Shown piece after piece: positions 8,789 through 57,817 of a stretch of 64,000 nucleotides of DNA (its first letter is position 1; each line of letters starts with the position of its first letter). The notes under the pieces were generated by a model. That model searched no databases. It saw only the letters and a list, made by a program, of their open reading frames with translations, and was not told the origin of the DNA. This stretch comes from Candidatus Poribacteria bacterium (lineage in GTDB: Bacteria; Poribacteria; WGA-4E; PCPOR2b), in contig JAJDUM010000017.1 of NCBI GenBank assembly GCA_022826645.1, positions 124,001 to 188,000 on the forward strand. Direction: 5' to 3'. The position numbers and the translations under genes were made by a program.

Positions 8789-8812
8789 GGAACGCAGATC
8801 TGCGTTCCCTAC
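8789..8812 (-). repeat. REP-like element: 20-bp perfect palindrome with adjacent GTAG
   Basis: GGAACGCAGATCTGCGTTCC (8789-8808) is its own reverse complement and is immediately followed by CTAC (8809-8812), so on the minus strand it reads GTAG plus palindrome. The inner 18 bases recur at 63951-63968. It sits between purH and the aldo/keto reductase gene. Confidence 0.72.
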
Positions 8813-8850
8813 GGAAAAGGTAATTCTATCATCATTACAAGGGAGAACAG

Positions 8851-9624
8851 ATGGACGCAATTCGGCTTATATCAGGCGATGAAATTCCTGTTCTGGGACT
8901 TGGGACATGGAATCTGCGGGACGAACAGTGCAAAACCGTCGTCAAAATCGCCCTTGAACTCGGTTACAATCACATTGATACTGCATGGATGTACGCTAAT
9001 CAAAAGGAGATTGGGGAGGCACTGCAAGAGGTTGGTGCAGTCAGAGAGGAACTTTTCATTACCTCCAAAATATGGCACACCCACATGAAGTACGACCAAG
9101 TTCATTCCCAATGCAATGAATGCCTTGAGGATTTGCAAACCGACTATGTAGATCTGTTACTGGTTCACCATCCCGGCGATGGCGCGGTGCCGATGGAAGA
9201 AACCCTGTCCGCATTCAATGAGATACACGATGCGGGGAAGGCGAAAAATATTGGTATCAGCAATTTTAGTATTGAGCAAGTGGATCAGGCGAGGGAAATC
9301 TCCCAGGCACCCATCGTCACCAATCAGGTGGAATATCACGCTCATAGTCAAGATGAGGATCTCTTGCAGCACTGTCATGCAGTCCAGATTCCCCTGACCG
9401 CTCATCGCCCCTTAGCAGTTGGTAAAATCGTCAGTGATCAGGTCCTTGGAGGAATTGGGAACGCACATGGAAAAACGGCGGCACAGGCCGCTTTGCGATG
9501 GCTAGTCCAGAAAGGCTTAATCGTCATCCCCAAAGCCAGTTCTGATCCCCACTTGAGAGAAAATCTTGACCTGTTCGATTGGGAACTCACGCCTGAGGAG
9601 ATGGAAACAATTAATAACCTGTGA
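8851..9624 (+). CDS. Aldo/keto reductase
   Basis: A 257-residue NAD(P)H-dependent aldo/keto reductase TIM barrel of the 2,5-diketogluconate-reductase-like branch. The catalytic tetrad is intact: D43 (HIDTA), Y48, K73 (TSKIW) and H106 (LLVHHP). The GISNFS motif is typical, and the C-terminal IPKASSDPHLRENL segment binds the nucleotide phosphate. ATG 8851 follows GGGAG. It precedes a PhyH and amidohydrolase pair, so it may reduce or oxidise an intermediate handled by them; this is inference from position. Confidence 0.92.
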   Translation: MDAIRLISGDEIPVLGLGTWNLRDEQCKTVVKIALELGYNHIDTAWMYANQKEIGEALQEVGAVREELFITSKIWHTHMKYDQVHSQCNECLEDLQTDYVDLLLVHHPGDGAVPMEETLSAFNEIHDAGKAKNIGISNFSIEQVDQAREISQAPIVTNQVEYHAHSQDEDLLQHCHAVQIPLTAHRPLAVGKIVSDQVLGGIGNAHGKTAAQAALRWLVQKGLIVIPKASSDPHLRENLDLFDWELTPEEMETINNL

Positions 9625-9712
9625 ACAGACGGAAACAACACGCTCAGCTCTTTGGAGTAGAAGGATAAAGACTTTTCGCTATCTTGAGATTGATAACGAT
9701 GGGAGGAATTCC

Positions 9713-10429
9713 ATGATCAGACCTACTGAAACCCAGACAGCACAATGGGAAGAAAAAGGCTACCTTGTCTTTGAAGATGCGATTCAGGGTGATGAGTTGA
9801 AACGACTCCAAGATGTCTTTGATTATTGGGCAGAAAAGTGTAAGCCAGCATGGTTAGATCGTATAGAGGCTGGCGAAGCGGCTGCATCATTTTACGACAT
9901 CCCAGATCCGTTTGAGAAAGATGAAATCTTTGTAGACCTGATTGATCACCCCAGCTATTACGGCAGTCTGATGGCATTTACGGACGATGACTTGATCTTG
10001 CTGGGACCGCAGGTCCGCACCGTCCCGCCGGGTCCCGTATGCTACACCGGGTGGCATCCTGATGTACCACAGAGTAACCCACTGCATATCAAGGTCCAAG
10101 TGTATGTGAACGATGTCGAACCCGAATCAGGTGAATTTGCCTTCGTACCGGGGAGCCACAAACCGGACGCGGGACCTTACTCCAAGGCACAACGGTTAGA
10201 AGCGATGCCTGGTCATAAACGGTTTCCGGGAAAAGCAGGCACCGCAATCATGTTCAACTCATACGGTTGGCACACCGCCATGGATAACCACACAGATACG
10301 CCCCGCAAATCGCTCATCCTCATCTACGAAAAACGAACCCCGGACCGGGTAGACCCAAAACGGTATACCTCCATTACCCACCTCTGCACGACGCCGGAAC
10401 GGCGCAAACTTTTCGGTTTGGAGGGATGA
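9713..10429 (+). CDS. Phytanoyl-CoA dioxygenase (PhyH) family protein
   Basis: A 238-residue Fe(II)/2-oxoglutarate dioxygenase. The triad is H115-P-D117 (GWHPD) and H187 (YGWHTA), with R198 for 2-oxoglutarate and FVPGSHKP at 144-151. The frame is open upstream to 9566, but ATG 9713 has GGGAGG at 9701-9706 and gives the usual family N-terminus. Its stop codon overlaps the start of the amidohydrolase gene, so the two are translationally coupled and probably act in one pathway. Confidence 0.9.
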   Translation: MIRPTETQTAQWEEKGYLVFEDAIQGDELKRLQDVFDYWAEKCKPAWLDRIEAGEAAASFYDIPDPFEKDEIFVDLIDHPSYYGSLMAFTDDDLILLGPQVRTVPPGPVCYTGWHPDVPQSNPLHIKVQVYVNDVEPESGEFAFVPGSHKPDAGPYSKAQRLEAMPGHKRFPGKAGTAIMFNSYGWHTAMDNHTDTPRKSLILIYEKRTPDRVDPKRYTSITHLCTTPERRKLFGLEG

Positions 10430-11328
10430 TGACACGAATAGATTCCCATCTCCACGTTTTCGCCAAGGTTTCCCCTGAATTCCCGAGAGAACCAACCCCG
10501 GTTTGTCCCGCCGATCGGGAAGAGACCGCTGAAAAGCTGCTGGTCGAAATGGAAGCAAACGATATCGACCAAGCAATGCTGGTGCAGACGGGTGGGACTG
10601 CTATCGAACACCATGCGTACCTGCTCCACTGTCTGAAGACGTATCCTGATCGGTTCCTTGGGATTGGGTTAGTACCTCCAGATCTTACTCACCCGGAGGA
10701 TCACATGGATAGGCTAACGGACGGAACCGGGATTATCGGTTTTCGGCTATCCTCGATTGGTGGTTCGAGAGATCCATTCGCTCGAATCAACATTAAGGAG
10801 ATCAAAACCTACCCTATCTGGAAACATGCTGCAGAACAAGATTATGTCCTCTGGCTTTATCCTCGCGCGGTTGATGCTCACCTGCTACAGCATTTGATTG
10901 ATGCCTTTCCGCAGGTGCGGGTCGTCCTGAACCACCTCGGCATCTGCCCCGGCAAAGGGAAATTCTCTTGGGATGCGAAGGGACGCCCCCGGGTTGAAAC
11001 TATTGACTATAATCCTGCATTTCATACAACTCACCGTCTCGCCTGTTTCGAAAATGTTATGATGCATATTTCGGGGCAATATGCTTTTAGCAACGAGGCA
11101 TATCCCTATCAGGATCTCGCTAGATGGCATCAACGAGTCCTCGATCTTTTCGGCGCAAAACGGCTGATGTGGGCGACCGACTTTCCGTGGATTTTGGAAG
11201 ATCCCGGGTACGGTCAACTGACCGGCATCCTCAAGCAATTGTTGCCCGATCTACACGATAACGAATACGACGCCATCATGGGCGAAAATGCAAAGCGGTT
11301 TCTAAGATTTCCCGAACGCACGAAATAG
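10426..11328 (+). CDS. Amidohydrolase-2 family metal-dependent hydrolase
   Basis: A 300-residue TIM-barrel hydrolase of the amidohydrolase-2 family, which includes 2-pyrone-4,6-dicarboxylate lactonase, fuconolactonase-like and decarboxylase enzymes. Visible features are the N-terminal H-x-H (DSHLHVF, H8 and H10), VVLNHLG, and the C-terminal MWATDFPW motif whose Asp is the usual catalytic acid. ATG 10426 overlaps the PhyH stop; ATG 10429 is an alternative one codon later. Coupling to a hydroxylase suggests hydrolysis of a hydroxylated or lactone intermediate, which is inference. Confidence 0.9.
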   Translation: MMTRIDSHLHVFAKVSPEFPREPTPVCPADREETAEKLLVEMEANDIDQAMLVQTGGTAIEHHAYLLHCLKTYPDRFLGIGLVPPDLTHPEDHMDRLTDGTGIIGFRLSSIGGSRDPFARINIKEIKTYPIWKHAAEQDYVLWLYPRAVDAHLLQHLIDAFPQVRVVLNHLGICPGKGKFSWDAKGRPRVETIDYNPAFHTTHRLACFENVMMHISGQYAFSNEAYPYQDLARWHQRVLDLFGAKRLMWATDFPWILEDPGYGQLTGILKQLLPDLHDNEYDAIMGENAKRFLRFPERTK

Positions 11329-11465
11329 TGTGTCCCTTGCGTAGTTCAAAGTTGCAATTTTCACGGATATAACCAAGATTCAAACCAACTTCCCAACAGT
11401 GCCACCTGACGGCGCGTAGTTACTTGCTCATCATTTTTCCCACAGAATATTAGGATCCGATTTCT

Positions 11466-12890
11466 ATGAGACAACGAACACAAGCCACGACTCCGAACAT
11501 TGTTAAAGAGATCCAAGCTGGGAAGGTACGCCCCGTGTACCTGCTGTGTGGCGAAGAACAGTTTCTGGTAGAGGCTACCCTCAAGCAGATGCTTGAGAAT
11601 TTTCTGTCCCCTGAGACCCGTGATTTTAACCTGAATCACCTGGATGGCGCGGAGGTTTCGATGCGCGATATTCTCAGTGCAGTGGAAGTCTACCCCGTAA
11701 TGGCAAATTGGCGTGTTGTTGTTGTGAATGAGGCTACAGTATTCAAGAGGCAGAAGGGACCATCATCACCGGAGATAATAGAAAACGCAGCAGAAGCTGC
11801 TGAAGAGGGGAAGCCGCGGAAAGCAATCGCGTTGATGGTGAAAGTCTTGGGCGTTTCGGCACAGGACATTGCTGACGAGAATAGCGACTTTAGAGAAGCC
11901 ATCAGCGACCTCACCGAGGAAAACGAAGGCGGGTTGAGTCCTGAAGACCTCGAATTTCTTCGCGACTTGCCGCAAATTACCGCTCAGATTGATGATTTTC
12001 AGCACATATCGGGTGCCGTCGACGACACCGAAATCTTGATTGAGTGGCTGGGTGGGGAGTTACCCAAAGAAAGCGTACTCATTTTTACAGTCAAAGGAAA
12101 TGTGGATGGGCGAAGCCGGCTCGTTAAATTAATAGGTCGTGTTGGAAGGTATGTCTCGTTTGCGTCGTTGGAACCCGCACGATCAGGTCAGCAAGATCGA
12201 GTTTACCAGGGTGTCTCCAGAAAGCTCGAAACATTCGGGAAGAAGATTTCTCCCAACGCCTTCAATCTCCTCCAAAGCCGAACAGGAAACGACATGCACC
12301 TGATTGCTGAAGCCATCGAAAAGATAATCGCTTTTGTTGGTGAGAAGACACGGATCGACGAACGAGATATAGAAACCGTCATCGCCCAGAGCAGCTTTGA
12401 AAACATCTTTGCGCTTACGGATGCACTTGGAAAAAGATCCGTTTCGCAAGCGTTATCCAGCCTCCACAGTGTGCTAGAGAGCGGGGAGCCACCGATCAAA
12501 GTCAACGCACTGATCGCACGGCAAATCAGGCTCACGCTTCAAGCAAAACTACTTGCTGAGTGCGGAGAACTAAAACCGACAGTAGATCGAATGAATTATC
12601 AGAGTTTTGCAGATAACGTTTTCAAGCCGCTCGCCGCAAAGATGTCGAATTATCTGCCGCATGCAGCGCAGGTCAATCTCCTCAAGCAGAATCCCTATGC
12701 CGCTTATAAAGTAGTCCAAGCTATTCCTTTTTTTAACACAGACGAGTTAATCCAAGGATTGGAGCAAACCCTGGAGGCGGATGTACAACTCAAGAGCAGT
12801 CAATTAGATCCAGAGTGCATCTTAGAACAGCTAGTCTATGAACTTTGCACGAAGCCAGATACTAGGAGATTGGCAAGAAACAAAATATGA
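11466..12890 (+). CDS. holA: DNA polymerase III delta subunit (HolA), with an insertion
   Basis: A 474-residue clamp-loader subunit that opens the sliding clamp during replication. The N-terminal Rossmann-like part has VYLLCGEEQFLVEATL and RDFNLNHLDG; the AAA-like core has VVVVNEAT and VLIFTVKGNVDGRSRLVK; the collar has EAIEKIIAF and ALIARQIRL. Typical HolA is about 330-350 residues. The excess is mainly an acidic insertion at about residues 96-188, between the VVVVNEA strand and LIEWLGG, where the protein usually runs straight on. The insertion has no family I recognise. Confidence 0.9.
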   Translation: MRQRTQATTPNIVKEIQAGKVRPVYLLCGEEQFLVEATLKQMLENFLSPETRDFNLNHLDGAEVSMRDILSAVEVYPVMANWRVVVVNEATVFKRQKGPSSPEIIENAAEAAEEGKPRKAIALMVKVLGVSAQDIADENSDFREAISDLTEENEGGLSPEDLEFLRDLPQITAQIDDFQHISGAVDDTEILIEWLGGELPKESVLIFTVKGNVDGRSRLVKLIGRVGRYVSFASLEPARSGQQDRVYQGVSRKLETFGKKISPNAFNLLQSRTGNDMHLIAEAIEKIIAFVGEKTRIDERDIETVIAQSSFENIFALTDALGKRSVSQALSSLHSVLESGEPPIKVNALIARQIRLTLQAKLLAECGELKPTVDRMNYQSFADNVFKPLAAKMSNYLPHAAQVNLLKQNPYAAYKVVQAIPFFNTDELIQGLEQTLEADVQLKSSQLDPECILEQLVYELCTKPDTRRLARNKI

Positions 12891-13161
12891 GATCTCAACC
12901 TGCGAGTAGCTCTCGGAGTATTCAGGCTCCACCTCTTCTCTCAACACGGGTGAGTGCCCACTTCGACGACTCAAATATTTCCGCTGACGCGCACATAGCT
13001 CGCATCAATCCGGGGAATTGCTTAAACTCTCACAAGGTTCAGTCGATAAGTCGATATAAGAGTGGCAAAATTCTTATATCTCTTGTAAGGAAATTAGTGA
13101 ACCTGAGTGATAGCACTGCGTCATTCGAACCGTTAACATTGTGGATGGAGGCTTGAACATA

Positions 13162-13383
13162 ATGGAAGTAGTTTTCTTTATAGGCTTATTTATTGTTGTT
13201 ATTGTAGCGATTCAAACTATCGGCGACATAGTGAAAAGGAAGTATCAATTTGAAAACAGAAGCGACGTTAGTCAGGAGGCGCTTGCGCAGATCCAAGCAG
13301 ATCTCAACGCACTCCAAAAAAGCGTTGATGAAATGAAGGAGTACCTCACGGATTTATACATTCAGCAGCATGACAACTCCTGA
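13162..13383 (+). CDS. Small membrane-anchored coiled-coil protein
   Basis: A 73-residue protein with an N-terminal transmembrane helix (about residues 3-22, VVFFIGLFIVVIVAIQTIG), a short basic stretch, and an amphipathic coiled-coil-like helix (about 35-68). ATG 13162 has GGAGG at 13147-13151; the frame is open back to 13141. The layout resembles PspB-like or other short envelope-stress proteins, but I do not recognise a specific family. It lies between holA and cspA on the same strand. Confidence 0.55.
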   Translation: MEVVFFIGLFIVVIVAIQTIGDIVKRKYQFENRSDVSQEALAQIQADLNALQKSVDEMKEYLTDLYIQQHDNS

Positions 13384-13493
13384 ATTAAGAGGCAGCTCAA
13401 ATAACTGAAAACCCAAAATCACAGGTAGGCATTCATAGGTTCCAATCGCGCCCTGTTGCCGCCTAAAAATAGCCTAGATATCATCTTTCATTC

Positions 13494-13522
13494 TTGCATT
13501 TCTATCAGGAACTAAGTATAAT
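13494..13522 (+). promoter_or_regulatory. Sigma-70-type promoter for cspA, with long leader
   Basis: TTGCAT (13494-13499) and TATAAT (13517-13522) are 17 bases apart. Start of transcription near 13529 would give a cspA leader of about 160 bases, a length typical of cold-shock mRNAs whose 5' ends fold differently with temperature. The rest of 13384-13687 holds nothing else I can identify. Confidence 0.62.
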
Positions 13523-13687
13523 ATAAACGCAACTGTACAATGGATTCAAGAAAGCTTTACAAGTTGTGTGAAGGGCAAAACTGAAGCGTCTTCCCCAGAT
13601 TTGCTGTCATTTTGTACTTCTATGCTTCTTTCAGCTTCATGAGACGTTTGCAGTTAGATATTCTGAAGTGAAAGGAGGTGCGAAAAG

Positions 13688-13894
13688 ATGGCAACAGGCC
13701 GTGTCAAATGGTTCAGTAACCAGAAGGGTTACGGGTTTATCACTACTGATTCAGGGGAAGATGTGTTTATACATTATTCCGCTATCGAAGGAGATGGTTT
13801 CAAATCTCTCGATGAGGGCGAAGAGGTTGAGTTTGAAATCGTGCAAGGTCCCAAAGGTTATCAGGCAGAAAACGTTGTGAAACTTGAGGGTTGA
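13688..13894 (+). CDS. cspA: Cold-shock protein, CspA family
   Basis: A 68-residue single cold-shock domain (OB fold) that binds single-stranded RNA and DNA and acts as an RNA chaperone. Both RNA-binding motifs are intact: KGYGFI (RNP1) at about 14-19 and VFIHY (RNP2) at about 26-30. AAAGGAGGTG at 13671-13680 is an excellent ribosome-binding site. It is a monocistronic unit with its own promoter and a strong terminator 40 bases downstream. Whether it is cold-induced cannot be told from sequence alone. Confidence 0.95.
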
Positions 13895-13932
13895 TAGGTC
13901 GAAATTAACCAAGTTACTGGCTAAAACAAAAT

Positions 13933-13966
13933 AAAAAAGGCTCCCAAACCTATGGGAGCCTTTTTT
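13933..13966. terminator. Strong bidirectional intrinsic terminator
   Basis: A-tract plus GGCTCCC (to 13945), an 8-nt loop, then GGGAGCC (13954-13960) followed by six T. The A6/T6 flanks extend the stem and make it work on both strands, ending cspA on the plus strand and nadA on the minus strand. Confidence 0.92.
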
Positions 13967-14015
13967 GATTAATACCGGTATCGGATCTGAATAACCTAAA
14001 CCTATTTTACCTGTT

Positions 14016-15125
14016 TCAGGCGCTCAATTCAAGCATCCGCTCAATTGGCGTTCGTGCCCGTTCGATGACCTCCGGCATGAGTGTTACTTCGTGTGGACTC
14101 AAATCGTCACCTTTATCAAGCGCCTGCAGAACATTAAGCACCTTGTCGAGTGTGACCTTCGCCATGTGGGAACACCGCACAGAGCATGCAGTAGAAAACT
14201 GTACCGTCGGAAATTCCTGTCCGAGGTTTGATGTCAACTCACACTCCGAAGCAACGAATGCGCGCTCCAGCCGATCTTCCTCCACCCTTTTGGCTATATC
14301 CTGCCCTATCTGACTCGTACTGCCGTAAAAATCCGCTTCCTGAAGCACTTCAGGTCGGCATTCCCAATGTGCATAAAGTACTCTGGTGGGGTGACCTTTA
14401 GGGATATCAAACGACCCGCGTATTGCTAAGAGATCCGAAAGTAGAAATTTCTCATGCACCTCACACACCGCTCCCTTCTCTCGGTTCCCCTTACCAGGGA
14501 AGAAAACCGTTTTCGTTCCCCTCAGTTCTTCCTCTAAATTCTCCGCAAAGAAAATATCAGGAACAAATAGGATTTCATCACCCGGCATTTCTCGAGCTAT
14601 GTGGGCAGCATTTGCAGAGGTGCAGCAGATGTCCGACTCGGCTTTCGCATCAGCGTAACTATTGATGTAGATCATGACGGGCACTCCTGGATATAGTGCC
14701 TTCAGCTTTCTCACCTCTTCAGCCCCAAAATTATCTGCCAAAGAACATCCTGCGGTCTTATCCGCAGCGAGAACCGTTTTTGAAGGATTTAGGATCTTCG
14801 CAGTTTCTGCCATGAACGGCACACCATTAAAGAGGATGTATGGTGCGTCGGTTTTTGCTGCATGCATGCTCAACGCAAGTGAATCGCCCTGCTCATTTTT
14901 TGTTGATAAACCGAACACAAGGGGCTCCATATAGTTATGGCCAAGCATCACCACGTTGTGTTTTTTCTTCAGTTTTAATATCTGATACACTGTTTCCGCG
15001 TGAGCTTCTATGTCGATTGGCGTTACACTTGGATGGTTCCTCTTATAAAGTTCTTTCTTCACACTTTCAATACTCAGTTCGGTGCTGTTCATATTATCTT
15101 GAGATACTGTTGGTTGGGAATTCAT
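14016..15125 (-). CDS. nadA: Quinolinate synthase (NadA)
   Basis: A 369-residue 4Fe-4S enzyme condensing iminoaspartate with dihydroxyacetone phosphate to quinolinate in NAD synthesis. Visible motifs are LGHNYMEP, FNGVPFMAETAKIL, C127 in KTAGCSLAD, the CCTSANA segment, a Cys in YAHWEC and the C-terminal ACSVRCSHM, consistent with the three cluster cysteines of the family. nadB and nadC are not in the window. It has its own promoter at 15259-15287 and shares the terminator with cspA. Confidence 0.95.
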   Translation of the reverse strand: MNSQPTVSQDNMNSTELSIESVKKELYKRNHPSVTPIDIEAHAETVYQILKLKKKHNVVMLGHNYMEPLVFGLSTKNEQGDSLALSMHAAKTDAPYILFNGVPFMAETAKILNPSKTVLAADKTAGCSLADNFGAEEVRKLKALYPGVPVMIYINSYADAKAESDICCTSANAAHIAREMPGDEILFVPDIFFAENLEEELRGTKTVFFPGKGNREKGAVCEVHEKFLLSDLLAIRGSFDIPKGHPTRVLYAHWECRPEVLQEADFYGSTSQIGQDIAKRVEEDRLERAFVASECELTSNLGQEFPTVQFSTACSVRCSHMAKVTLDKVLNVLQALDKGDDLSPHEVTLMPEVIERARTPIERMLELSA

Positions 15126-15258
15126 TTCTTCTCACCCCTGAATCTATCGGCGTGTCTTTTGCCTTAAATTTCTTATTTGAATTTCTTAGTTCCAAAAACC
15201 TTCTGGGCATATAGCCAAAGAATGGGAGAAATCTCTGTTGTTTGTTGGATTGCCATAG

Positions 15259-15287
15259 AGTGTACAACGATTAGAAATCTTTGTCAA
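15259..15287 (-). promoter_or_regulatory. Sigma-70-type promoter for nadA
   Basis: On the minus strand TTGACA (15287-15282) and TACACT (15264-15259) are separated by 17 bases, about 130 bases upstream of the nadA start. Confidence 0.6.
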
Positions 15288-15373
15288 GTATGATTGCGAT
15301 GAATCGTGAAAATTTATCCGCTCGGTTCAGCAATTCAATTGACGAATTGCTGACCGTGACGTGAATGGATTAA

Positions 15374-17902: not shown

Positions 17903-18000
17903 AGGCGCGAAACGTGATCCACAACAGAAGGGCAAGAGCCAAGGACTTTAGTACATCACCTGCACTCCTACCGCCTTGTGAATACTTACGAAGTTTGATT

Positions 18001-19047: not shown

Positions 19048-19193
19048 AAATTTAATCTCCTTAAAAATCCGGGGTAAATTGTATTCGATATTTCAAGATA
19101 GCGCGTCGAGGTTCAAAGTATATCAGATTCCACGATGTTAATCAATTGCAAACCTTTATCCACGCTGTAATCACTTCCGAACCGTGGAATGCG

Positions 19194-20027: not shown

Positions 20028-20044
20028 GTTAATGTTCTCCTATC

Positions 20045-20944: not shown

Positions 20945-20964
20945 AGTTTCGCAACTCCTTTTTG

Positions 20965-21552: not shown

Positions 21553-21581
21553 TTGATCAGCCTATAACCATCTGCTATAAT
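21553..21581 (+). promoter_or_regulatory. Sigma-70-type promoter for the Gfo/Idh gene at 21629
   Basis: TTGATC (21553-21558) and TATAAT (21576-21581) are separated by 17 bases, in the 76-base gap between divergent rimI and the oxidoreductase gene. The -35 box touches the rimI start codon. Confidence 0.58.
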
Positions 21582-21628
21582 ACGGCAGAAACTCTAATAT
21601 TTCACGTTTCATTTAAGGAGATGAACGA

Positions 21629-22726: not shown

Positions 22727-22733
22727 AGGGCAG

Positions 22734-36924: not shown

Positions 36925-36942
36925 GATCTGCTGAAATAGCGT

Positions 36943-37126
36943 GTCGAGATGTGAATCTCTATCTACATGGCGCTGTGCCGGGATAGGGGTGGACAGGGCA
37001 AGACGTCCGACCTATGTGGGTGTAGTGTTGAGTTTCACCTTACCTTGGCACAAAAAGGCATTGTTGAAAAAGCGCAGTTTCTATTTTGCTGGATATAAAT
37101 TCGCACTTATCGTTCAGCCAACCTAC
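36943..37126 (-). repeat. Tandem mosaic of GTAG-headed REP-like palindromes
   Basis: Three units in a row. First, GTCGAGAT at 36943-36950 with its degenerate partner at 36955-36962, followed by CTAC (36963-36966). Second, a degenerate copy around 36990-37016 with GGAC and GTCC arms, followed by GACCTAT. Third, GTTGAG (37027-37032) with GCCAAC and CTAC at 37123-37126. All have the CTAC on the right, that is GTAG heads on the minus strand. They occupy the gap between the Gfo/Idh and cupin genes. Confidence 0.6.
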
Positions 37127-40719: not shown

Positions 40720-40982
40720 TTGGGTTTCGCTGTATCTGGTTATATTAAAGGGTGGTATTGAGAAGCGTGGCTCCTATTGTCATTGATAGGCTGCCGCTAT
40801 TACCGTTAACCCCAACCTACGTGCTCAACCCATAGTGTTAATCAACGGGTGAGGAAACCTCGCTCCTACGATTACAATTAGGGGCTGTAACCCTTTGTTC
40901 ACGGATCGGAAAAGATTTAGGACTTCGGAGAGCGGTGTCTTGAAATCGCCTTCTCAGTGTCGAGATGTGAATCACGACCTGC
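40720..40982 (-). repeat. Mosaic of three GTAG-headed REP-like palindromes
   Basis: In the 480-base gap 40617-41096. GTTGGG (40720-40725) pairs with CCCAAC (40811-40816), followed by CTAC (40817-40820). GGGTGAGG-AAA-CCTCGCTC (40847-40865) forms a hairpin, followed by CTAC (40866-40869). GTCGAGAT (40959-40966) with ATCACGAC (40971-40978) is followed by CTGC. Different palindromes thus carry the same adjacent motif. There is no gene in this gap. Confidence 0.65.
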
Positions 40983-41096
40983 AATCACAATCGACCCGCT
41001 CCTACGGCTACAGACAATTCCACATAAACGTCAACACGCCCCAGTTATTCACGGTGCCCTATTGTAGTTTGTTCGCTAATCTGCTGCTTGAGTCGG

Positions 41097-43655: not shown

Positions 43656-43685
43656 TTGACAATCAGCTATGGAATCATCTAATAT
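43656..43685 (+). promoter_or_regulatory. Sigma-70-type promoter for the Ppx/GppA gene
   Basis: TTGACA (43656-43661) and TAATAT (43680-43685) are separated by 18 bases, about 30 bases before the ATG at 43715. Confidence 0.55.
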
Positions 43686-43714
43686 TTTGACATATATAGA
43701 GATAAGGAGAGAAT

Positions 43715-45289: not shown

Positions 45290-45309
45290 TAAAATCGTTC
45301 CCCAGTTAC

Positions 45310-46704: not shown

Positions 46705-46777
46705 CAATAGCTTTCTATTTGATTTGAATATTTAGAGTGGACATAAGATCAAAAAACAGTTCTGTTGACGTTTGGGT

Positions 46778-46900
46778 GTCGAGATATGAATCTCGACCTA
46801 CAGCCAGCCTACCTGATATCGAATTGGGTGAAACGGTCGGGCAAGTCCGAGAGGATCCGTCCGTTCTGAAACCAGGCGCGATTGGGGATGCCCGACCTAA
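46778..46900 (-). repeat. Two GTAG/TTAG-headed REP-like palindromes
   Basis: GTCGAGAT (46778-46785), 4-base loop, ATCTCGAC (46790-46797), then CTAC (46798-46801): a perfect 8-bp hairpin with an adjacent GTAG head on the minus strand. GGTCGGGCA (46835-46843) pairs with TGCCCGACC (46889-46897) and the next bases read CTAA. Both lie upstream of the enolase-superfamily gene at 46928. Confidence 0.7.
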
Positions 46901-46927
46901 TTACGCATCACGTGGATAGGAGAAAAG

Positions 46928-48034: not shown

Positions 48035-48075
48035 ATCGCTGCAGAATTTTTGAGCCTTTCGAGCAGCAGTGTGCA

Positions 48076-48984: not shown

Positions 48985-49041
48985 AGGATTTTCTCGGAAA
49001 TTTGCAACGTTCGATATATTGATTGGAAACGACTCTCGTCC

Positions 49042-50037: not shown

Positions 50038-50177
50038 ACGAATCTCCCATGATATGCTCCCAGTCATAGATGTTTCGGAGTGTCAGAAATCGGCTGCAAC
50101 ATACGACCGCTGATGAGTTTATTTTAACAAATTTGGGGACAGGTGGCAAGCGAAACTGAGATTGTCCTATATTTAAC

Positions 50178-50206
50178 TTGATTTGGGATTTTCACCGTGA
50201 TAAGAT
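50178..50206 (+). promoter_or_regulatory. Sigma-70-type promoter for the sodium:solute symporter gene
   Basis: TTGATT (50178-50183) and TAAGAT (50201-50206) are separated by 17 bases, about 110 bases before the symporter start. Confidence 0.5.
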
Positions 50207-50319
50207 AGCCAAACTTTCCGAGAATTTCCGACGTTGCCCAAGACGCACCGTCTGAAAATTGCAAGCCAACTGCGTAAGTATACCCTTGGCGCATCAATAT
50301 AAAATAGGGTCGATGTTTG

Positions 50320-52041
50320 ATGAAACTTTCACTTATTGACGGCGTAATCATCGTTAGTTACATCTTTTTCGCGCTGGGACTTGGTATTTACTACTCCAAA
50401 CGTGCTGGGAGGAATATTAACGAGTTTTTCGTTTCTGGTCGGAACTTGCCGTGGTGGCTTGCAGGCACATCGATGGTCGCAACGACATTTGCCGCGGATA
50501 CCCCGTTGGCAGTCACGGGGCTCGTAGTCAAAGACGGAATTGCCGGGAACTGGTTATGGTGGAACATGGTCTTGAGCGGGATGTTAGCAACATTCCTGTT
50601 CTCTCGACTCTGGCGTCGGTCGGAGGTTATCACCGATGTTGAGTTGACGGAATTGCGTTATTCCGGAAGATCAGCCAGCCTGTTGCGCGGTTTTCGAGCC
50701 TTATACATCGGATTACCGATAAACTGCATCACGATGGGTTGGGTGATTTTGGCAATGCAGAAGATCATTGTGTTGACCTTCGGCTTGCCTGACACCGGCA
50801 CATCGAAAGTGTTTGTTGTTCTGGCGTGTATGCTGATTGCAGGCATATATTGTGCGCTGTCAGGTTTTTGGGGCGTTGTCATAACGGACTTGGTCCAATT
50901 CGGAATGGCGATGGTCGGGTCGATTGCGTTAGCGGTTATCGCTGTTGTCAAAATCGGGGGTATAGGTACCCTGAAGGCGAAGCTATCGGAGGTGCATGGG
51001 GCAGACCACTCGATTCTGAACCTCTTCCCGGACTCCGGTGCCGGCGAGATGGCAATATTGACCTTCGGCGTTTATCTCGGTGTCCAGTGGTGGGCGGCAA
51101 ACGGCGTAGATGGCGGCGGCTACATCGCTCAGCGGATGTTCGCAGCAAAGGACGAACGGAACACACTGCTTGCTACGCTATGGTTTAACATCGCACACTA
51201 TACCTTGCGCCCCTGGCCATGGATTCTTGTCGCTCTCGTATCGATGATAGTCTACCCAAACCTCAGCGATCCGGAGGCGGGGTATCCGATGCTAATGCTT
51301 GCGTACCTGCCCGCAGGACTGCTTGGTCTGATGCTCACGGCATTTCTTGCAGCGTTTATGTCAACAATTGATACCCACCTTAACTGGGGGGCGTCCTACC
51401 TCGTTAATGATTTCTATAAACGCTTTTTCAAACCGGAGGCTGACGACCAGCACTATGTGGTCGTTTCCCGAATCTCGGTAGTGCTGATCATGTTTATTGC
51501 AGGAGTAACCAGTTTGTTCATGAATTCCATCGCGGGAGCATGGAAATTCCTGATTGCCCTCAACGCAGGGATTGGACTGGTGCAGATCTTGCGGTGGTAC
51601 TGGTGGCGGATTAATGCATGGTCAGAGATCGCCGCAATGGTTACTTCGGCGATTGTTTCAGCGATTGTGTTCACCTTACCCCAGACAAAAGATCATTTCG
51701 CATATCAGATGCTAATCATCGTTCCGTGTTCGACACTGGTTTGGATCGTCATAACTTTAATGACTGCACCTGTCTCGGAAGAGAAGCTGATTACGTTTTA
51801 TCAACGCGTTCGACCCAATGGCGGCTGGTGGGGACGCATCCGCAGTCTCGCAGATGTCGCACCGATCACGGACAGCAGTACACCAGCACTACTCAACTGG
51901 GTGCTGGGTTCAGCATTTGTTTATTGCACACTGTTTGGGATCGGCAAATTGCTCTTGGGGTTTTATGGTGCAGGAGCACTTTTTCTGCTGATTGCATTAA
52001 TCACGGGGGGACTGGTTTATCGCGGATTGCCAGCCAGATAG
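50320..52041 (+). CDS. Sodium:solute symporter family (SSS) transporter
   Basis: A 573-residue integral membrane protein with about 13-14 hydrophobic segments. The N-terminal LGIYYSKRAGRNINEFFVSGRNLPWWLAGTSMVATTFAADTPLAV is the signature of the family that imports sugars, amino acids, pantothenate, proline and the like with Na+ (residue run split here: SKRAGRNINEFFVSGR, then LPWWLAGTSMVATTFAADT). LLGLMLTAFLAAFMSTIDTHLNW is the later conserved helix. The ATG at 50320 is preferred to the TTG one codon earlier. It may take up the substrate of the neighbouring oxidoreductases. Confidence 0.93.
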   Translation: MKLSLIDGVIIVSYIFFALGLGIYYSKRAGRNINEFFVSGRNLPWWLAGTSMVATTFAADTPLAVTGLVVKDGIAGNWLWWNMVLSGMLATFLFSRLWRRSEVITDVELTELRYSGRSASLLRGFRALYIGLPINCITMGWVILAMQKIIVLTFGLPDTGTSKVFVVLACMLIAGIYCALSGFWGVVITDLVQFGMAMVGSIALAVIAVVKIGGIGTLKAKLSEVHGADHSILNLFPDSGAGEMAILTFGVYLGVQWWAANGVDGGGYIAQRMFAAKDERNTLLATLWFNIAHYTLRPWPWILVALVSMIVYPNLSDPEAGYPMLMLAYLPAGLLGLMLTAFLAAFMSTIDTHLNWGASYLVNDFYKRFFKPEADDQHYVVVSRISVVLIMFIAGVTSLFMNSIAGAWKFLIALNAGIGLVQILRWYWWRINAWSEIAAMVTSAIVSAIVFTLPQTKDHFAYQMLIIVPCSTLVWIVITLMTAPVSEEKLITFYQRVRPNGGWWGRIRSLADVAPITDSSTPALLNWVLGSAFVYCTLFGIGKLLLGFYGAGALFLLIALITGGLVYRGLPAR

Positions 52042-52214
52042 AACGGTGAGGTCCGACAGTAGTACGCGGCACGCCTATATCGGTGCTCTCCCCAATCGTA
52101 GGCACACCAAAACTCATCAATCTATCATCAATTGGATTGTCGAACGATTTGATCCTGAGCGCATTATCTACCTTGTAAAAATATCCCGCTAAAAGAGAGA
52201 TGGTTCCAAAATAT

Positions 52215-52333
52215 AAAGGAGGTAATTCGGGTGGATCCGGGAACAAACCCCGATAAGTCAGCAGCTGCTTGCAGACAGTCCATGATCGCTTGGGCTTTTT
52301 GATGATTGACTGTCAATCTCGTTCCTGAACCCG
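52215..52333 (+). promoter_or_regulatory. Possible structured leader or leader peptide upstream of the lytic transglycosylase
   Basis: AAAGGAGG (52215-52222) precedes GTG 52231, which opens a 23-codon frame ending at 52302. The same stretch can fold: GGAAC (52240-52244) with GTTCC (52321-52325) enclosing GACAGTC (52274-52280) with GACTGTC (52308-52314). It could be a small peptide, a regulatory RNA leader or neither. The rest of 52042-52340 shows nothing. Confidence 0.3.
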
Positions 52334-52340
52334 TAACGAT

Positions 52341-54554
52341 ATGCCCAGAAAAATGTTGTACAGTTACTTACTCTCTATTGCTTTCACCCTCTGTGTGATT
52401 CTGCGGGGATTTGCGGAAGCCAATTTTGAAGCGTCACTCAACTTTGTTGATCAGGGGAACTACACGGAAGCCGCGCGCAGTTTAGAAGATCTGCTGAAAA
52501 CACAACCAACCCATCCAGAGAAACAAGCGATCCATCATGTGCTAGCTTACTGTTACGAAGAGACGGAAAAATGGTCAGAAGCGATCAAACATTATACGCA
52601 TGCCGTTTCCCCAACCTATCCCTTAACGGATTATGTCCTCTACCATCTGGCAAAGTCATACGGACAGATGAAGGACAATCGAAACGCTATCATCTGGTAT
52701 CAACGGTTGATCAATGAACATCCGCAGAGTTTGCATGTTGCGGGCGCGAGGTACGAACTCGGAAAAGCGTATTATTACGCAGGCAATCACGCCGAAGCCC
52801 TCAAGAGGTTTCTGTCTCTGATCAACAACTCAAAGAACAGTTATGCCAGGAAAGCGACTTTTGAGGCTGCAAAGACCTATGCAAAACTGGGCAATTGGAA
52901 GAAAGCCCAGGACACCTATCAACAGCTTATGCACGCAAAGGACGCGGACACAATTGCACAAAATTCACTCGACGCACTGCAAAAATTGGTCGCAAAACAT
53001 CCAGAACTCCAGATTACCCGCAATCAACGCATGACGCACGCCATGGTACGGTTCAATCGGGGTCAACTGACGAAGGCACGTTCGGAATTTCGCAAGGTTG
53101 CCGCGGGACATAAAGACAAAATCACCGCACGTGCTACCTACTATATCGGTCGCTCATTCCACCGTCAGCGTAAATATGATTCTGCCCTCGAAGCATACAA
53201 CAAAATCGTTTCCCTCTACCCAGCGAGCGGTTATCTCACGCGGGCACTCTACCAGTCGACGCTATGCTACCGGCGCAAGGGACAGCCGCAAATGGCTGAG
53301 AAGCGTTTGATTGAATTCGTTGAAAAATACAACTGGAGTGCATTAGCAGACGATGCGCTATATGATCTCGGATGGGTGCAGGAGAACCAGAAACAGTACA
53401 ACAAAGCGATTGCTTCCTATCGACGCCTAACAACCCAATACACCCATAGCAACTGGTTACCGCGTACATACTGGCGAATTGGTTGGATCCAATTCAGAAA
53501 CGAACGATACACAGATTGTCTTGCAACCTTCACAACTTTGCAAAAGGGTTTTCCACACGATAGTTGGGCTAAAGCCGCGCACTTCTGGATAGCAAAGACC
53601 TATGAACGTCAGAACCAGTTAGAAGCAGCGGAGGCAACATACAGCGAACTCGCACGGGCAAGTCATTGGTATTACAGCGGTGCAGCAAAGCAGCATCTGA
53701 AACGGCTTCAATCAAAACGTGCTGCGCCCGCCAAACAGGAAATCTCAGAAGTCCCTCGCGTCCGTGTTGCTTTGGACAGCCCTGCTTGGAAAGGCATCGG
53801 ATCCAAGAAAACGGCTCGTGTCCAACAATTGATGCGTCTCAAGCTTTTTGAGGCTGCCTTGACCGAACTTGAGGGAAATATACAGCGCGGCAACTCAAAT
53901 CTTCAACACAATTACTATAATATGGTAGTATGCCTCGAAAAACTGAAAAGATTTCAACAGGCGCACCGATATGCAGATCGGCTATCAAATTTCCGACCTT
54001 TGCGCGGCGCAAACAACGCCATACCGATAGAGCTTTATCGACTCCTCTACCCACTTTACTACAAAGACCTCCTTCAAAAACATACGACAACCTACGAAAT
54101 TGACCCGCTATTCGTCGCCGCTATGATCCGCGAAGAGAGTCGATTTAACGCCGACATTGTTTCCTACGCGGGTGCGGTGGGACTGATGCAGATTATGCCG
54201 GCAACTGGCCGCGAGTTAGCCGGTCGTCTCAAAATTCCTCGATTTAGCAAAAAGATGCTGTATAATCCCGATATCAACATTCAGATGGGATCGTGGTACA
54301 TGAAAAGTTTGATGAACCAGTTTGACAATAATCACGCACTGGTTGCCGGTGCATACAATGGCGGTCCCGGCCGGATGCGGCGATGGATAAAGGGCAAGCA
54401 GATCCCGGATCTGGATGAATTCATCGAAGACATTGGGATAGACCAGACACGCCGTCATATAAAAAAGGTTATTGATAGCTACATCATCTATCAACAGCTT
54501 TACCCCGATCCGCCCCCTGCTTCTGCAAACGTATCGTTACCAACGGATGGTTGA
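52341..54554 (+). CDS. Exported lytic transglycosylase (SLT) with N-terminal TPR array
   Basis: A 737-residue protein. A signal peptide (about 1-26) is followed by TPR-like repeats over about 30-570, with typical units such as YTEAARSLEDLLKTQP, YDSALEAYNKIVSLYP and YNKAIASYRRLTTQY. The C-terminal SLT domain (about 585-715) has the catalytic E599 in REESRFN, GAVGLMQIMP and VAGAYNGGPGRM. It cleaves peptidoglycan glycosidic bonds, making anhydromuropeptides. The layout resembles E. coli Slt70, with helical superhelix then catalytic domain, but the first region here is TPR-like. The function fits envelope remodelling. Confidence 0.93.
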   Translation: MPRKMLYSYLLSIAFTLCVILRGFAEANFEASLNFVDQGNYTEAARSLEDLLKTQPTHPEKQAIHHVLAYCYEETEKWSEAIKHYTHAVSPTYPLTDYVLYHLAKSYGQMKDNRNAIIWYQRLINEHPQSLHVAGARYELGKAYYYAGNHAEALKRFLSLINNSKNSYARKATFEAAKTYAKLGNWKKAQDTYQQLMHAKDADTIAQNSLDALQKLVAKHPELQITRNQRMTHAMVRFNRGQLTKARSEFRKVAAGHKDKITARATYYIGRSFHRQRKYDSALEAYNKIVSLYPASGYLTRALYQSTLCYRRKGQPQMAEKRLIEFVEKYNWSALADDALYDLGWVQENQKQYNKAIASYRRLTTQYTHSNWLPRTYWRIGWIQFRNERYTDCLATFTTLQKGFPHDSWAKAAHFWIAKTYERQNQLEAAEATYSELARASHWYYSGAAKQHLKRLQSKRAAPAKQEISEVPRVRVALDSPAWKGIGSKKTARVQQLMRLKLFEAALTELEGNIQRGNSNLQHNYYNMVVCLEKLKRFQQAHRYADRLSNFRPLRGANNAIPIELYRLLYPLYYKDLLQKHTTTYEIDPLFVAAMIREESRFNADIVSYAGAVGLMQIMPATGRELAGRLKIPRFSKKMLYNPDINIQMGSWYMKSLMNQFDNNHALVAGAYNGGPGRMRRWIKGKQIPDLDEFIEDIGIDQTRRHIKKVIDSYIIYQQLYPDPPPASANVSLPTDG

Positions 54555-54632
54555 ATGGCAGGACGTGGCTCCTACCAAATCTGCGTCAATCCCTCGGACG
54601 AGCATCACTCAATAATTGAAAGGATAACTATT

Positions 54633-55424
54633 ATGGCACATACCATTGGCTGCACAACCCGTCCCTACGGTTCACTTACATTCTCCGAAGCGTGCGATCA
54701 TATCGCGGCTGCTGGATATACCGATGTTGCAGTATTTGCCAACGCCGGTCAGGTTCCTGTGAGAGCCGATAGCACGAACGCAGAAATTGCCGAAACCCGT
54801 AAAGCCGCAGATGCTGCTGGATTGGCTCCGTCAATGTTAATAGGCAGCACGAAATTGAACCTCGGTTTGGAAGCAGCTGTGGCTGACTACAAACAACTCA
54901 TCAGTAACGCCGCTGCCCTGGGGACGAAGTGGTTGCTCGATTGTGGTACAGGAAACGAAGCTCACTATGCGGACTACTTTGAGCTGATGCGTCAAGCTGC
55001 GCCACATGCGGCAGAAATGGGCGTCAATATAACGATGAAGCCGCACGGTGGAATCAGTCTCACAGTCCAAGACCTGATTGATGCCGATGAGGAAGTGAAG
55101 CACCCCGCCTTCGGGATCTGCTACGATCCGGGCAACATAATCTACTACACCAAAGGCGATCTCCGTCCCGAAACCGATGTAGCGACTATTGCGCCGAGAG
55201 TATCAACGACAATTATCAAAGATTGTGCTGTTGAAGATGGTGTACCCGATGTGATGGTCACGCCGGGCGAAGGGTTAGTTGAGTTTGACACGGTCCTCGC
55301 CGGGCTTGTCAATGGCGGTTTTGATGGGCCACTCTATGTTGAATGTGTCGGTGGGGAGACTGTGGATGAAATCGACGGAAACATCCAATCAACGCTGAAG
55401 TTTGTGAGCAATATCTTGGGTTAG
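54633..55424 (+). CDS. Sugar phosphate isomerase/epimerase (xylose-isomerase-like TIM barrel)
   Basis: A 263-residue TIM barrel of the AP-endonuclease-2 / xylose isomerase-like family, which includes hydroxypyruvate isomerases, inosose dehydratases and tagatose epimerases. Supporting stretches are EACDHIAAAGYTDVAVF, INITMKPHG, FGICYDPGNIIYY, TIIKDC and a late GPLYVECVG. The Glu, Asp, His and Glu metal-site residues are plausibly in these strands. ATG 54633 has AAAGGA upstream; the frame is open earlier, to 54555. It begins a run with two enolase-superfamily enzymes and a Gfo/Idh. Confidence 0.85.
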   Translation: MAHTIGCTTRPYGSLTFSEACDHIAAAGYTDVAVFANAGQVPVRADSTNAEIAETRKAADAAGLAPSMLIGSTKLNLGLEAAVADYKQLISNAAALGTKWLLDCGTGNEAHYADYFELMRQAAPHAAEMGVNITMKPHGGISLTVQDLIDADEEVKHPAFGICYDPGNIIYYTKGDLRPETDVATIAPRVSTTIIKDCAVEDGVPDVMVTPGEGLVEFDTVLAGLVNGGFDGPLYVECVGGETVDEIDGNIQSTLKFVSNILG

Positions 55425-55534
55425 CATCTCTTGGTGTATTGGTACATCTGAAAATTCAATAGAAATCCCGGTAGTTCTGTGCAGCGAGAATCCCGATCCG
55501 AATCGGAGGACGCAAAGGCACAAGGAGGAGAACA

Positions 55535-56578
55535 ATGAAAATCACCCGTCTTGAAACCGAACTGTATATCGCCCCGCCGCCGGAGCGCCCAATCACTGAT
55601 GCCCTCCGCGCTAATAAACATCCGGGACGTGTTCACGTGAAAGTCCATACCGATAAAGGCATCGTCGGTCGTTCATCGGTCGGTTTCTCCTCGATTCGGG
55701 GTGCGAACCAGACGCTACAGACAATGCTTGATGCAGAGGTTGCGCCGCTACTTGTGGGACGGGATCCGCTCGCTATTCGACTCATTCACGAAGATTTGAA
55801 GCGGGCATTGGAAGAGCAGGCGATCCACGGCATGACGATGTACGCCCTCACAGCTGTTAATGTCGCGCTTTGGGAGATCTTTGGGCAGGAGACGGGACAA
55901 CCTGTACACCGCCTTGTTGGTCAAGCAAAAGACCGAGTCCCCGCCTATACCATGGTCGGATGGATGCACTTAGACCTTGATGAGCTCAAGGAGGTCTGTG
56001 CGAAATCCACAGAACAAGGATTCAAGGCGGTGAAGGTCAAGGTAGGTTCGCCAACACTAGAGGAGGACATCCGACGTTTAGAAGCAGTTCGTGCGGAGAT
56101 TGGTCCAGATGTCACGGTTATGGTGGACGCCAACCAAACGCTCACCGTGTATGAAGCGTTGCGGCGTGGGCAGGTTTTTCAAGAGATGGGGGTCTTTTGG
56201 CTGGAAGAACCGTTACCTGCTCGCAATTACGATGACTACGCCGAACTCGCGCACGGACTTGCTATGCCCATCGCTACCGGCGAAAACCTTTACGGAAAGG
56301 AAGAGTTTAAGGAACTCTTAATCCGTCGTGGGATAGACATCGTTCAGGTCGATCTTGCCCGTTTGGGCGGATTCTCGGAATGTGTTGCCACCGGTCTGAT
56401 GGCAGCGGCGTTTGATGTTCCGTGCTGCACACATGGCGGAGGCCTGATAAATTTGAATATTCTATGCGCTCTGCCCAATACGCTGTATTTGGAAACGGGA
56501 CTATTGACCGATGAGGAACGTGACCACTTCGTTGATGGGTGTTTTCTTGCACCGGAGGGCGCTGGATTTTCGTGGTAG
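55535..56578 (+). CDS. Mandelate racemase/MLE (enolase-superfamily) enzyme with canonical K-x-K motif
   Basis: A 347-residue enolase-superfamily enzyme. The capping domain is at 1 to about 120 (ALWEIFGQETGQPVHRLVG). The barrel has AVKVKVG (the K-x-K base motif), VMVDANQTL, FWLEEPLPA and IATGENLYG for metal ligands, and a late His in CCTHGGG. This is a mandelate racemase/dehydratase-like active site. AAGGAGGAG is directly upstream. It is between the TIM-barrel isomerase and a Gfo/Idh gene, which suggests one acid-sugar pathway. Confidence 0.91.
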   Translation: MKITRLETELYIAPPPERPITDALRANKHPGRVHVKVHTDKGIVGRSSVGFSSIRGANQTLQTMLDAEVAPLLVGRDPLAIRLIHEDLKRALEEQAIHGMTMYALTAVNVALWEIFGQETGQPVHRLVGQAKDRVPAYTMVGWMHLDLDELKEVCAKSTEQGFKAVKVKVGSPTLEEDIRRLEAVRAEIGPDVTVMVDANQTLTVYEALRRGQVFQEMGVFWLEEPLPARNYDDYAELAHGLAMPIATGENLYGKEEFKELLIRRGIDIVQVDLARLGGFSECVATGLMAAAFDVPCCTHGGGLINLNILCALPNTLYLETGLLTDEERDHFVDGCFLAPEGAGFSW

Positions 56579-56624
56579 AATAGCTTAAACTGTCAATCTA
56601 TAGCTAAGGATGAGGAGAGAAACA

Positions 56625-57683
56625 GTGGGACAAAGCCAAGATAGCTTGCGCGTAGCAGTCGCTGGAGGCCACCGTATGACACACCGTACACCGGGCAGCC
56701 ATAACTTCGCGACTGCTTTTCATGCTGTGCCGGAGACGGACGTGGTAGCGGTGTTCGACCTTGGTACAGACACCCGAACAGAGTTTGTGGATTGTTGGCG
56801 AGAGGTCTGGGGAGAGATTCCGACCTATGACGACTATCAACAGATGCTTAACGAGATTCAGCCTGACCTGCTGTGCATAGCCACACGCCAAACGATGCAC
56901 GCCGATCAGATTGAGTTGGCTGTCCAAGCCGGAGTCCGCGGTATTCTGTGCGACAAACCACTTGCTACCAGCTTGGCGGAGATGGATCGGATTATCGCGG
57001 CGTGTCGAGAGGTGCCGCTGCTTTTGGGGTTGGACCGCCGTTGGATGCCCCGATATTGTGCACTGCGCGAGCTAATTGCCGATGGTGTGATCGGAAAGGT
57101 TACCAGTGCAACCGCCTATGCACTGTCCAATCTGATTAATCACGGATGCCATTCGTATGATGCTATCTTGGGCTTGGCGGGCGATGTTGAGCCGGTGTGG
57201 GTCAGCGGCTTAGTAGACGACGTTTCGGAGGAACCATCCGATTCACGCAGACGCATGGATCCAGCCGGACACGCGCAGATCGGTCTGGCAAATGGAGCGG
57301 TGCTTTATTTTACCCCAGACGGTCGCCATGAAAATGCAGGGATGACCCTTGAAGTGGTCGGAGAAACGGGACGTCTGTTTCTGTTGGACGATGCCAATGA
57401 GAGCTATATCTGGTTAGCGGACGATTCATCTGGGGCAGGATTGCGGCCATTAGATCTCCCGGAGGAAACCGAACCGTGGCCTGCCGGCAAGGCGATGGTG
57501 AGCGATCTGGTGCAAGCGGCGCAAACAGGCGGACGAACCGCCTGCGACATCGAACATGTTCGTCGCGCCACCGAGATAGGTTTCGCGATTCACGCGTCTT
57601 CAGCGGAAGGCGGGGTTAGGGTTGACCTACCAGTCGCCGATCGATCATTCCGTGTTGAGTCGTATCCCTGGGGCAATGAATGA
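56625..57683 (+). CDS. Gfo/Idh/MocA-like protein with degenerate Rossmann and EKP motifs
   Basis: A 352-residue protein related to the Gfo/Idh/MocA family. The nucleotide motif is unusual, VAVAGGHRMTHRTPGSHN rather than GxGxxG, and the catalytic motif is CDKPLA instead of EKP. The C-terminal sheet domain is recognisable (GMTLEVVGETGRLFLLD). GTG 56625 with GGAGAG five bases upstream is preferred to ATG 56610. It follows an enolase-superfamily gene by 46 bases. It may have lost or changed its cofactor, or act on a large substrate. Confidence 0.82.
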   Translation: MGQSQDSLRVAVAGGHRMTHRTPGSHNFATAFHAVPETDVVAVFDLGTDTRTEFVDCWREVWGEIPTYDDYQQMLNEIQPDLLCIATRQTMHADQIELAVQAGVRGILCDKPLATSLAEMDRIIAACREVPLLLGLDRRWMPRYCALRELIADGVIGKVTSATAYALSNLINHGCHSYDAILGLAGDVEPVWVSGLVDDVSEEPSDSRRRMDPAGHAQIGLANGAVLYFTPDGRHENAGMTLEVVGETGRLFLLDDANESYIWLADDSSGAGLRPLDLPEETEPWPAGKAMVSDLVQAAQTGGRTACDIEHVRRATEIGFAIHASSAEGGVRVDLPVADRSFRVESYPWGNE

Positions 57684-57817
57684 AACGTGAAAACCGTTGT
57701 CATTGGTTTTAGTGTTGGGTTTCACTAGTAGATTAGGACGATTTCAGGCAGAATCGAACACCAAAATCTCAGTGTGATGCTTGGTATTTTTTATCGGTGT
57801 CGTTCAGCCCAACCTAC
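57682..57817 (-). repeat. GAAACGTGAAAACC motif and a GTAG-headed inverted repeat
   Basis: The 14-mer at 57682-57695 matches 40651-40664. GTTGGG (57714-57719) and CCCAAC (57808-57813), followed by CTAC (57814-57817), form an inverted repeat 100 bases long with a long loop. The same arrangement is at 40720-40820, so the flanking motif and repeat travel together. The gap 57684-57881 otherwise shows no gene. Confidence 0.65.

Follow-up and report, generated by a model that had tools for sequence, protein, structure and literature searches.

GTAG-headed palindromes of a Poribacteria genome as REP elements, with RAYT transposases as their probable means of spread

Why should several palindromes of unrelated sequence, lying between the genes of one genome, all carry the same GTAG tetranucleotide at one end? 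The question is raised by a stretch of 64,000 nucleotides from a Candidatus Poribacteria bacterium (GCA_022826645.1, contig JAJDUM010000017.1; the whole stretch is called the window here). An earlier note likened its palindromes to repetitive extragenic palindromic (REP) elements, which are recognized by REP-associated tyrosine transposases (RAYTs). The five palindromes it named lie at the places given, and each is followed on the plus strand by CTAC, that is, GTAG on the minus strand, or by CTAA. From a comparison of the window with its own genome (G000; 6.04 Mb, 127 contigs, 94.4% complete), its congeners G001–G005 and further genomes, we conclude with high confidence that these palindromes recur as dispersed repeats and belong to the known GTAG super-family of REP elements. 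It is also highly probable, judging from sequence, that they were spread by several RAYT lineages, each with its own hairpin type, or body.

Hairpins were scanned in the window and 20 further stretches of the same genome (L008–L027), 455,363 bases together, at a stem score of at least 8 with loops of 3–8 and one mismatch allowed. The scan gave 128 hairpins; of their 256 flanks 31 carried GTAG, where tetramer frequency predicts 3.4. GTAG was the most enriched tetramer at hairpin edges among those occurring at least eight times; a single Markov-1 shuffle placed it on none of 96 flanks. With the stem score relaxed to at least 7, 39 flanks carried GTAG (7.6 expected; 2 of 370 in the shuffle). The enrichment over shuffled DNA on which the earlier note had made its proposal depend is thus present across these 455 kb. 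In 814,266 bases scanned at the relaxed score there are 86 GTAG hairpins, 77 of which lie outside open reading frames (ORFs) called with a crude caller, though these frames cover 87% of the sequence. Tallied by eye, the hairpins have about a dozen bodies.

Individual bodies recur at many sites. GTAG followed by body A with up to three mismatches matches 54 times across the own genome, the reversed pattern never. At up to two mismatches, the copies number 49 in G000, 18 in G001, 40 in G002, 52 in G003, 44 in G004 and 107 in G005; beyond the genus, G007 has 3, G008 19, G012 3 and G014 1, and the other 48 of the 58 genomes have none. Body A is therefore dispersed in 10 of the 58 genomes, and body B in eight, namely the six genus members, G009 and G012 (reversed-pattern controls, 0). 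The 104 strand-hits of body B in the own genome, again at up to two mismatches, include many symmetric copies, which are matched on both strands. Body B, which lies at 8789–8812 of the window and in many copies in G000–G005, G009 and G012, often takes the form of a palindrome of 28 bp bounded by GTAG on either side, unlike normal REPs. Overall, GTAG lies directly 5' of the hairpin and the repeats are intergenic, dispersed and high in copy number, as in GTAG REPs. The window copies measure 23–104 nt, which leaves no room for a gene, and so differ from IS200/IS605 elements, which encode their own TnpA. The inverted-doublet arrangement of REPs (REPINs, or bacterial interspersed mosaic elements), which is common in REPs and not defining, was not seen as the prevailing form in a scan blind to long-loop hairpins: 53 of the 77 detected copies have no neighbor within 150 bp, and 15 have a detected copy on the opposite strand within that distance.

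The same bodies are found beside RAYT genes. Y1 transposases occur in 56 of the 58 genomes searched, the own included, which holds seven genes with a PF01797 (Y1) match. Across 126 Y1 loci, among which some genes are represented twice, RAYTs flanked by window bodies were found for A, D and K: L134 of G005 is flanked on each side by body A, L114 of G003 lies between copies of body D, and L129 of G003 and L141 of G012 each lie between copies of body K. Body A stands beside L134 and its duplicate L174 and at no other of these loci. These four proteins, together with L107 and L007, possess the Y1_Tnp domain and exceed the NCBIfam REP_Tyr_transpos cut-off, and a profile built from L134, L129, L141 and L007 matches the solved TnpA-REP structure 4er8 at 2.1e-44. 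The HUH motif and, mapped by spacing, the residues W, Q and R corresponding to the GTAG-recognition residues 94, 95 and 104 described for the E. coli enzyme (PMC6006769) are present in the RAYTs of bodies A, K, D and C; L007 deviates at Q and by one position, and L006 carries H at Q.

Three RAYT-like genes of the own genome, L005, L006 and L007, have GTAG hairpins on both sides, with bodies other than A, D and K. L005 scores just under the REP_Tyr_transpos cut-off (73.7 of 80); L006, which is truncated, lacks its N-terminal part (profile match 41–146), passes the cut-off through a partial match and is flanked by a body, GAGGGGCATCCTTGCCCCGA, that resembles body D. An enzyme for body A or body K was not found in the own genome. 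The RAYT for body A (RAYT-A) is intact only in G005, where body A is also commonest (107 copies, against 18–52 in the other five genus members); its best matches in G000–G003 are 26–34% identical, G004 gave no match, and broken relatives (48–61% identical) are found in G007 and G008. These broken relatives, G007:C363 (L128) and G008:C434 (L173), reside in genomes with few or variant copies of body A. The closest relative of RAYT-A in genome_contigs (59%) belongs to a Zixibacteria metagenome-assembled genome (L194) and is flanked by GTAG-GTCGAGATTCCAATCTCGAC and GTAG-GTCGATTTTCTAAAATCGAC, one a body A and the other an E-like body. The flanks of L194 were read with an RNAfold scan of 46 of the 80 genome_contigs loci, used for this purpose only, which at a lenient threshold and with no null model placed a GTAG or GTGG hairpin near 45 of them. 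A further record named 'Candidatus Poribacteria' (L196) matches RAYT-A at 48%, with a score like that of the G007 gene.

At the level of single sites, the window was compared with homologous regions of G001–G005 where both flanks could be located, and REP sites come and go among these congeners. The body B copy at 8789–8812 (GTAG + GGAACGCAGATCTGCGTTCC) lies at the same site in G004 and is absent from G005 and G001. The body A copy at 36941–36967, with a GTAG head and a decayed right arm, is intact at the orthologous site of G003 and absent from G004 and G005. The next two copies share a gap near 40850–40980, in which both are missing from G003, and G004 and G005 have other REPs. One of them, at 40847–40869 (GAGCGAGG/CCTCACCC; GTAG + GAGCGAGGTTTCCTCACCC), looks like a decayed body G, GTAG-GGGCGAGG-TTT-CCTCGCCC with two substitutions, and full-form relatives, GTAG-GGGCGAGGTTTCCTCGCCC, occur elsewhere in the own genome; the other, at 40957–40983, is a decayed body A with the head GCAG. 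An intact body A (TGTAG + GTCGAGATTCATATCTCGAC), whose cognate RAYT is L134, occupies 46776–46802 and is present in G003 and absent from G004 and G002. Beside it, at 46835–46901, a long-loop form of body D with the head TTAG and arms GGTCGGGCA/TGCCCGACC about 45 nt apart has a decayed, shorter counterpart at the orthologous site of G003 and none in G004 or G002. The second long-loop element, body K at 57714–57817 (GTAG + GTTGGG, with CCCAAC about 90 nt away), is absent from G003 and G004. A further near-copy of the body B 20-mer, with the head GTAA, lies at 63950–63973, outside the range first reported. Thus five window copies have the head GTAG, and TTAG, GCAG and GTAA head the remaining ones; all are on the minus strand. 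Two other GTAG hairpins, at L157:3325 and L166:16148, align without gaps in relatives and resemble chance matches in conserved sequence. The long-loop form of body D is seen repeatedly within the genus. Long and short loops of this body exchange at orthologous sites, in both directions: at 46835–46901 the long form is that of G000, and at L014 974–997 G000 has the short form and G003 the long one.

Together, the enrichment, the RAYTs flanked by bodies A, D and K and the variation of sites among congeners bear out the proposal that the GTAG-headed palindromes are REP elements; the Y1 genes that the earlier note had suggested looking for exist, and in congeners they are flanked by the same hairpins. 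The note had left it at one or several related enzymes. To the palindromes beside 48 Y1 proteins not of the IS200 type, body labels were assigned by eye, 42 receiving a label (that of L098 is doubtful) and six none; four of the 42 form a group, Q, that has no consistent GTAG head. On a tree of 54 proteins, from which two short sequences were dropped and in which IS200-type and unlabeled proteins counted as groups, the labels change 18 times (minimum 15), against a mean of 38.3 for shuffled labels, and none of 200 shuffles was as low. This clustering means that body follows the major RAYT lineages; several related enzymes, not a single one, are at work. Among 19 chosen bodies, all eight stem pairs vary with compensation, which illustrates drift and is no independent test, as the bodies were chosen as hairpins.

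The REPs would then be single-stranded hairpins of 20–30 nt, some with long loops, carrying an unpaired 5' GTAG. By analogy with known systems, RAYTs (TnpA-REP), being Y1/HUH transposases, would recognize, cut and re-join them in trans. The host lineage has probably encountered several RAYT lineages, each spreading its own body type, and GTAG would have stayed fixed because it is the sequence that the enzyme contacts and that guides cleavage, with the stem arms drifting through compensating changes. The own genome would have been left with repeats of A and K, several of them decaying, and without a detected enzyme; sister species retain the enzymes. This fits the Stenotrophomonas system as described in PMC8266576, where GTAG is guide and contact, the loop matters and the stem tolerates change.

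Several observations weigh against this account. None of the site comparisons caught an insertion with clean boundaries, and the empty sites in G001–G005 are too divergent around the element for insertion 3' of a pre-existing GTAG to be decided. Three labels, G2, Dx and N, show no clustering in the tree: of 500 shuffles, 70, 500 and 52, respectively, gave values as low, and in the clade with GAG-type bodies the three are interleaved. No RAYT for body B or for the window's form of body G was found among the 126 Y1 loci, which include 33 of the 38 matches from one search. An exact body G lies 1.3 kb from L088, and body B (up to two mismatches) occurs at L170 alone, in two copies, the first within a partial Y1 frame and the second beyond its 3' end. 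L170, from G009, was considered as the RAYT of body B since B and its GGGACG variant are found nowhere else among the loci, and was set aside because B may have landed there. At L170 2574–2942, the body B variant (GGGACGCAGATCTGCGTCCC) stands in frame within the partial Y1 reading frame, and a further copy follows just 3'.

The location of most GTAG hairpins outside called ORFs is also what would be seen if they were ordinary transcription terminators, or RNA-stability hairpins under selection, next to which GTAG is incidental. We regard this as very improbable, as almost identical bodies occur at tens of separate sites, RAYT genes are flanked by the same bodies, 9 of the 75 copies that were classified sit between divergent genes, and orientation in the own genome is independent of the genes (in unidirectional gaps, 30 REPs run with them and 30 against). 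The palindromes could instead have been moved by the IS200-type TnpA proteins of the same genome, of which there are four (L001–L004), with flanking palindromes of their own. Those palindromes, however, are of the GCTCC-GCTGGAGC or GCCCC type and have no GTAG, the R among the GTAG-contact residues is absent from L001 and L002, and L001, the one of the four scanned with NCBIfam, lies above the IS200 cut-off and far under that of REP_Tyr_transpos, which makes these enzymes a slightly less probable source still.

With RAYT-driven spread as the preferred explanation of the palindromes, their shared orientation can be considered. The earlier note had all copies pointing the same way, and this holds for the window set; genome-wide, however, both strands occur (body A, 20 plus and 34 minus). 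The uniform orientation in the window may be meaningful, with less certainty than the REP identity. Own contigs are lopsided in REP strand, for example C5 with 17 minus and one plus. Concordance within stretches is non-significant in G000, G001 and G040 (p 0.064, 0.22 and 0.051), and whole-genome positions were therefore examined next. In the complete genome G040, among 79 of the 105 matches to body C, 30 of 34 copies between 0.08 and 2.15 Mb are minus, the four plus copies lying between 0.90 and 1.20 Mb, and all 13 between 2.89 and 3.65 Mb are plus (14 runs against 29.8 expected, p < 5e-5). The runs test gives p 0.044 for G026. The G040 dnaA gene (PF08299), at 2.348 Mb, lies between the strand blocks; its sole rRNA gene is at 2.091 Mb and points leftward.

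Following the rule from IS608, by which the lagging-strand template carries the active strand, the best dnaA hit was taken as the origin in four single-contig genomes (G001, G040, G026 and G049), clusters within 5 kb were collapsed and 11 mixed clusters were dropped. If dnaA marks the origin, the GTAG strand is on the lagging-strand template at 124 of 178 sites (G001 36/58, G040 48/59, G026 15/22, G049 25/39), so that all four genomes lean in the predicted direction. Random origins match this in 0.0002 of 20,000 trials, and leaving out one genome at a time gives p 0.0006–0.0029. The G001 matches come from model R1 (E ≤ 1), for which 150 candidates were scored out of 1347 picked up at first look. 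The test was framed post hoc, after the strand blocks of the own genome and the positions in G040, G026 and G049 had been seen; dnaA positions were obtained after the framing, and G001 was tested last. In the own genome, fork direction was assigned by synteny with G001 (leftward in the window's contig, C5, C104 and C13, rightward in C3), and 31 of 39 REPs agree with it, although with five contigs these are not 39 independent events; 25 of 29 follow the fork in places where flanking genes oppose it or are neutral, and 6 of 10 in places where they run with it.

A possible reading of these data is that the spread of REPs by RAYTs is tied to the replication fork. Solitary REPs would insert with their GTAG strand on the lagging-strand template, and orientation over megabases would then record the direction of replication. 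Several results stand against it. The bias is strong in G040 only, each of the other three being weak (one-sided Fisher 0.04–0.10), and the runs test for G049 gives p 0.46 (40 of 43 matches). With dnaA as origin, replication would meet the sole rRNA gene head-on in three genomes (G001, G026 and G049), G040 being the one that agrees, and called genes show no leading-strand excess (co-directional in 280 of 591, 47%, in G001 and 143 of 290, 49%, in G040). GC skew is too weak to locate origins, and gene strands likewise failed. With a second, weaker dnaA-domain hit taken instead of the best one, agreement in G001 drops from 45 to 34 of 73 matches. As the rRNA gene of G001 is likewise head-on and the gene strands lend no support, we lowered our estimate for fork coupling from somewhat above an even chance to a little below it. 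The shared orientation may equally stem from the direction of the genes, from selection acting on strand-specific hairpins or from coincidence with a dnaA gene that is not at the origin, and we give these together slightly less than an even chance as well. They are favored by G040, where, of 14 REPs in unidirectional gaps, 11 share the direction of the genes and three oppose it, and by the poor fit of dnaA with rRNA genes (in three of the four genomes) and gene strands. Against them stand the predicted lean in all four genomes and the fact that the hairpin forms from both strands, head and loop alone differing, as well as the own genome, where 14 of 16 REPs follow the fork against the genes and 11 of 13 do so in neutral gaps, compared with the 6 of 10 where genes and fork coincide.

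A review (PMC5371812, citing Ton-Hoang 2010) states that IS200/IS605 orientation follows replication, and for REPs Bertels and Rainey (PMC3116915) describe tandem arrays oppositely oriented on opposite sides of one chromosome. IS608 and ISDra2 share with the present system a Y1 HUH enzyme, hairpins, a 5' guide tetranucleotide and replication-linked orientation (PMC5371812); unlike them, REPs have no gene of their own, and in the present data the effect on orientation is a statistical sign only. Our literature searches returned no earlier report of fork-linked REP orientation, which does not establish priority. Since mostly solitary REPs preserve strand information that is lost in inverted doublets, coupling can be tested by counting and, if true, REP orientation could help to locate the origins of uncultured genomes.

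The GTAG-tagged REP super-family comprises 24 families as presented by Di Nocera (2013, PMC3733652). The present elements agree with that description in having an unpaired GTAG at one end of a 20–40 nt palindrome, intergenic location, association with RAYTs and several families per organism, the super-family being known from several phyla; they differ from its dimers in that the copies detected are mostly solitary. A term search of that article gave no mention of Poribacteria, and one of PMC6006769 likewise did not show the lineage named. As in the REP–RAYT pairs described for Stenotrophomonas and Pseudomonas (Nunvar 2010, PMC2817692; Nunvar 2013, PMC3686654), one GT(A/G)G head goes with many bodies, each with a RAYT, REPs persist without a RAYT where a related strain retains it, and abundance is tied to the RAYT. 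Here, by contrast, the phylum and the bodies are others, and the pair of RAYT-A and body A is also found in the Zixibacteria genome. The kind of element is thus known, its members are new in this lineage, and the pairing of body and enzyme is unusually clear. The spread of REPs is called poorly understood in print (PMC8266576), and here, within one bacterial order, the GTAG head is fixed, the bodies differ from one major enzyme lineage to the next, and repeats remain in places where no enzyme for them was found.

Three minor observations concern other Y1 loci. The IS200-type genes L001–L004, L118, L119 and L131 have repeated flanking palindromes of the GCTCC-GCTGGAGC or AGCCCCAGCGGGGCGACATGT.TATAG type; these lack GTAG and form a second, different family of Y1-linked palindromes. 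In G040, a dense mixed-strand cluster of body C (C1:2452895–2546763) surrounds a RAYT (2484804–2485103) about 0.1 Mb from dnaA. The RAYT L084 (G028:C343) is flanked by tandem palindrome arrays of the GGTTCGG/CCGAACC type, with a spacing of mostly about 90 nt.

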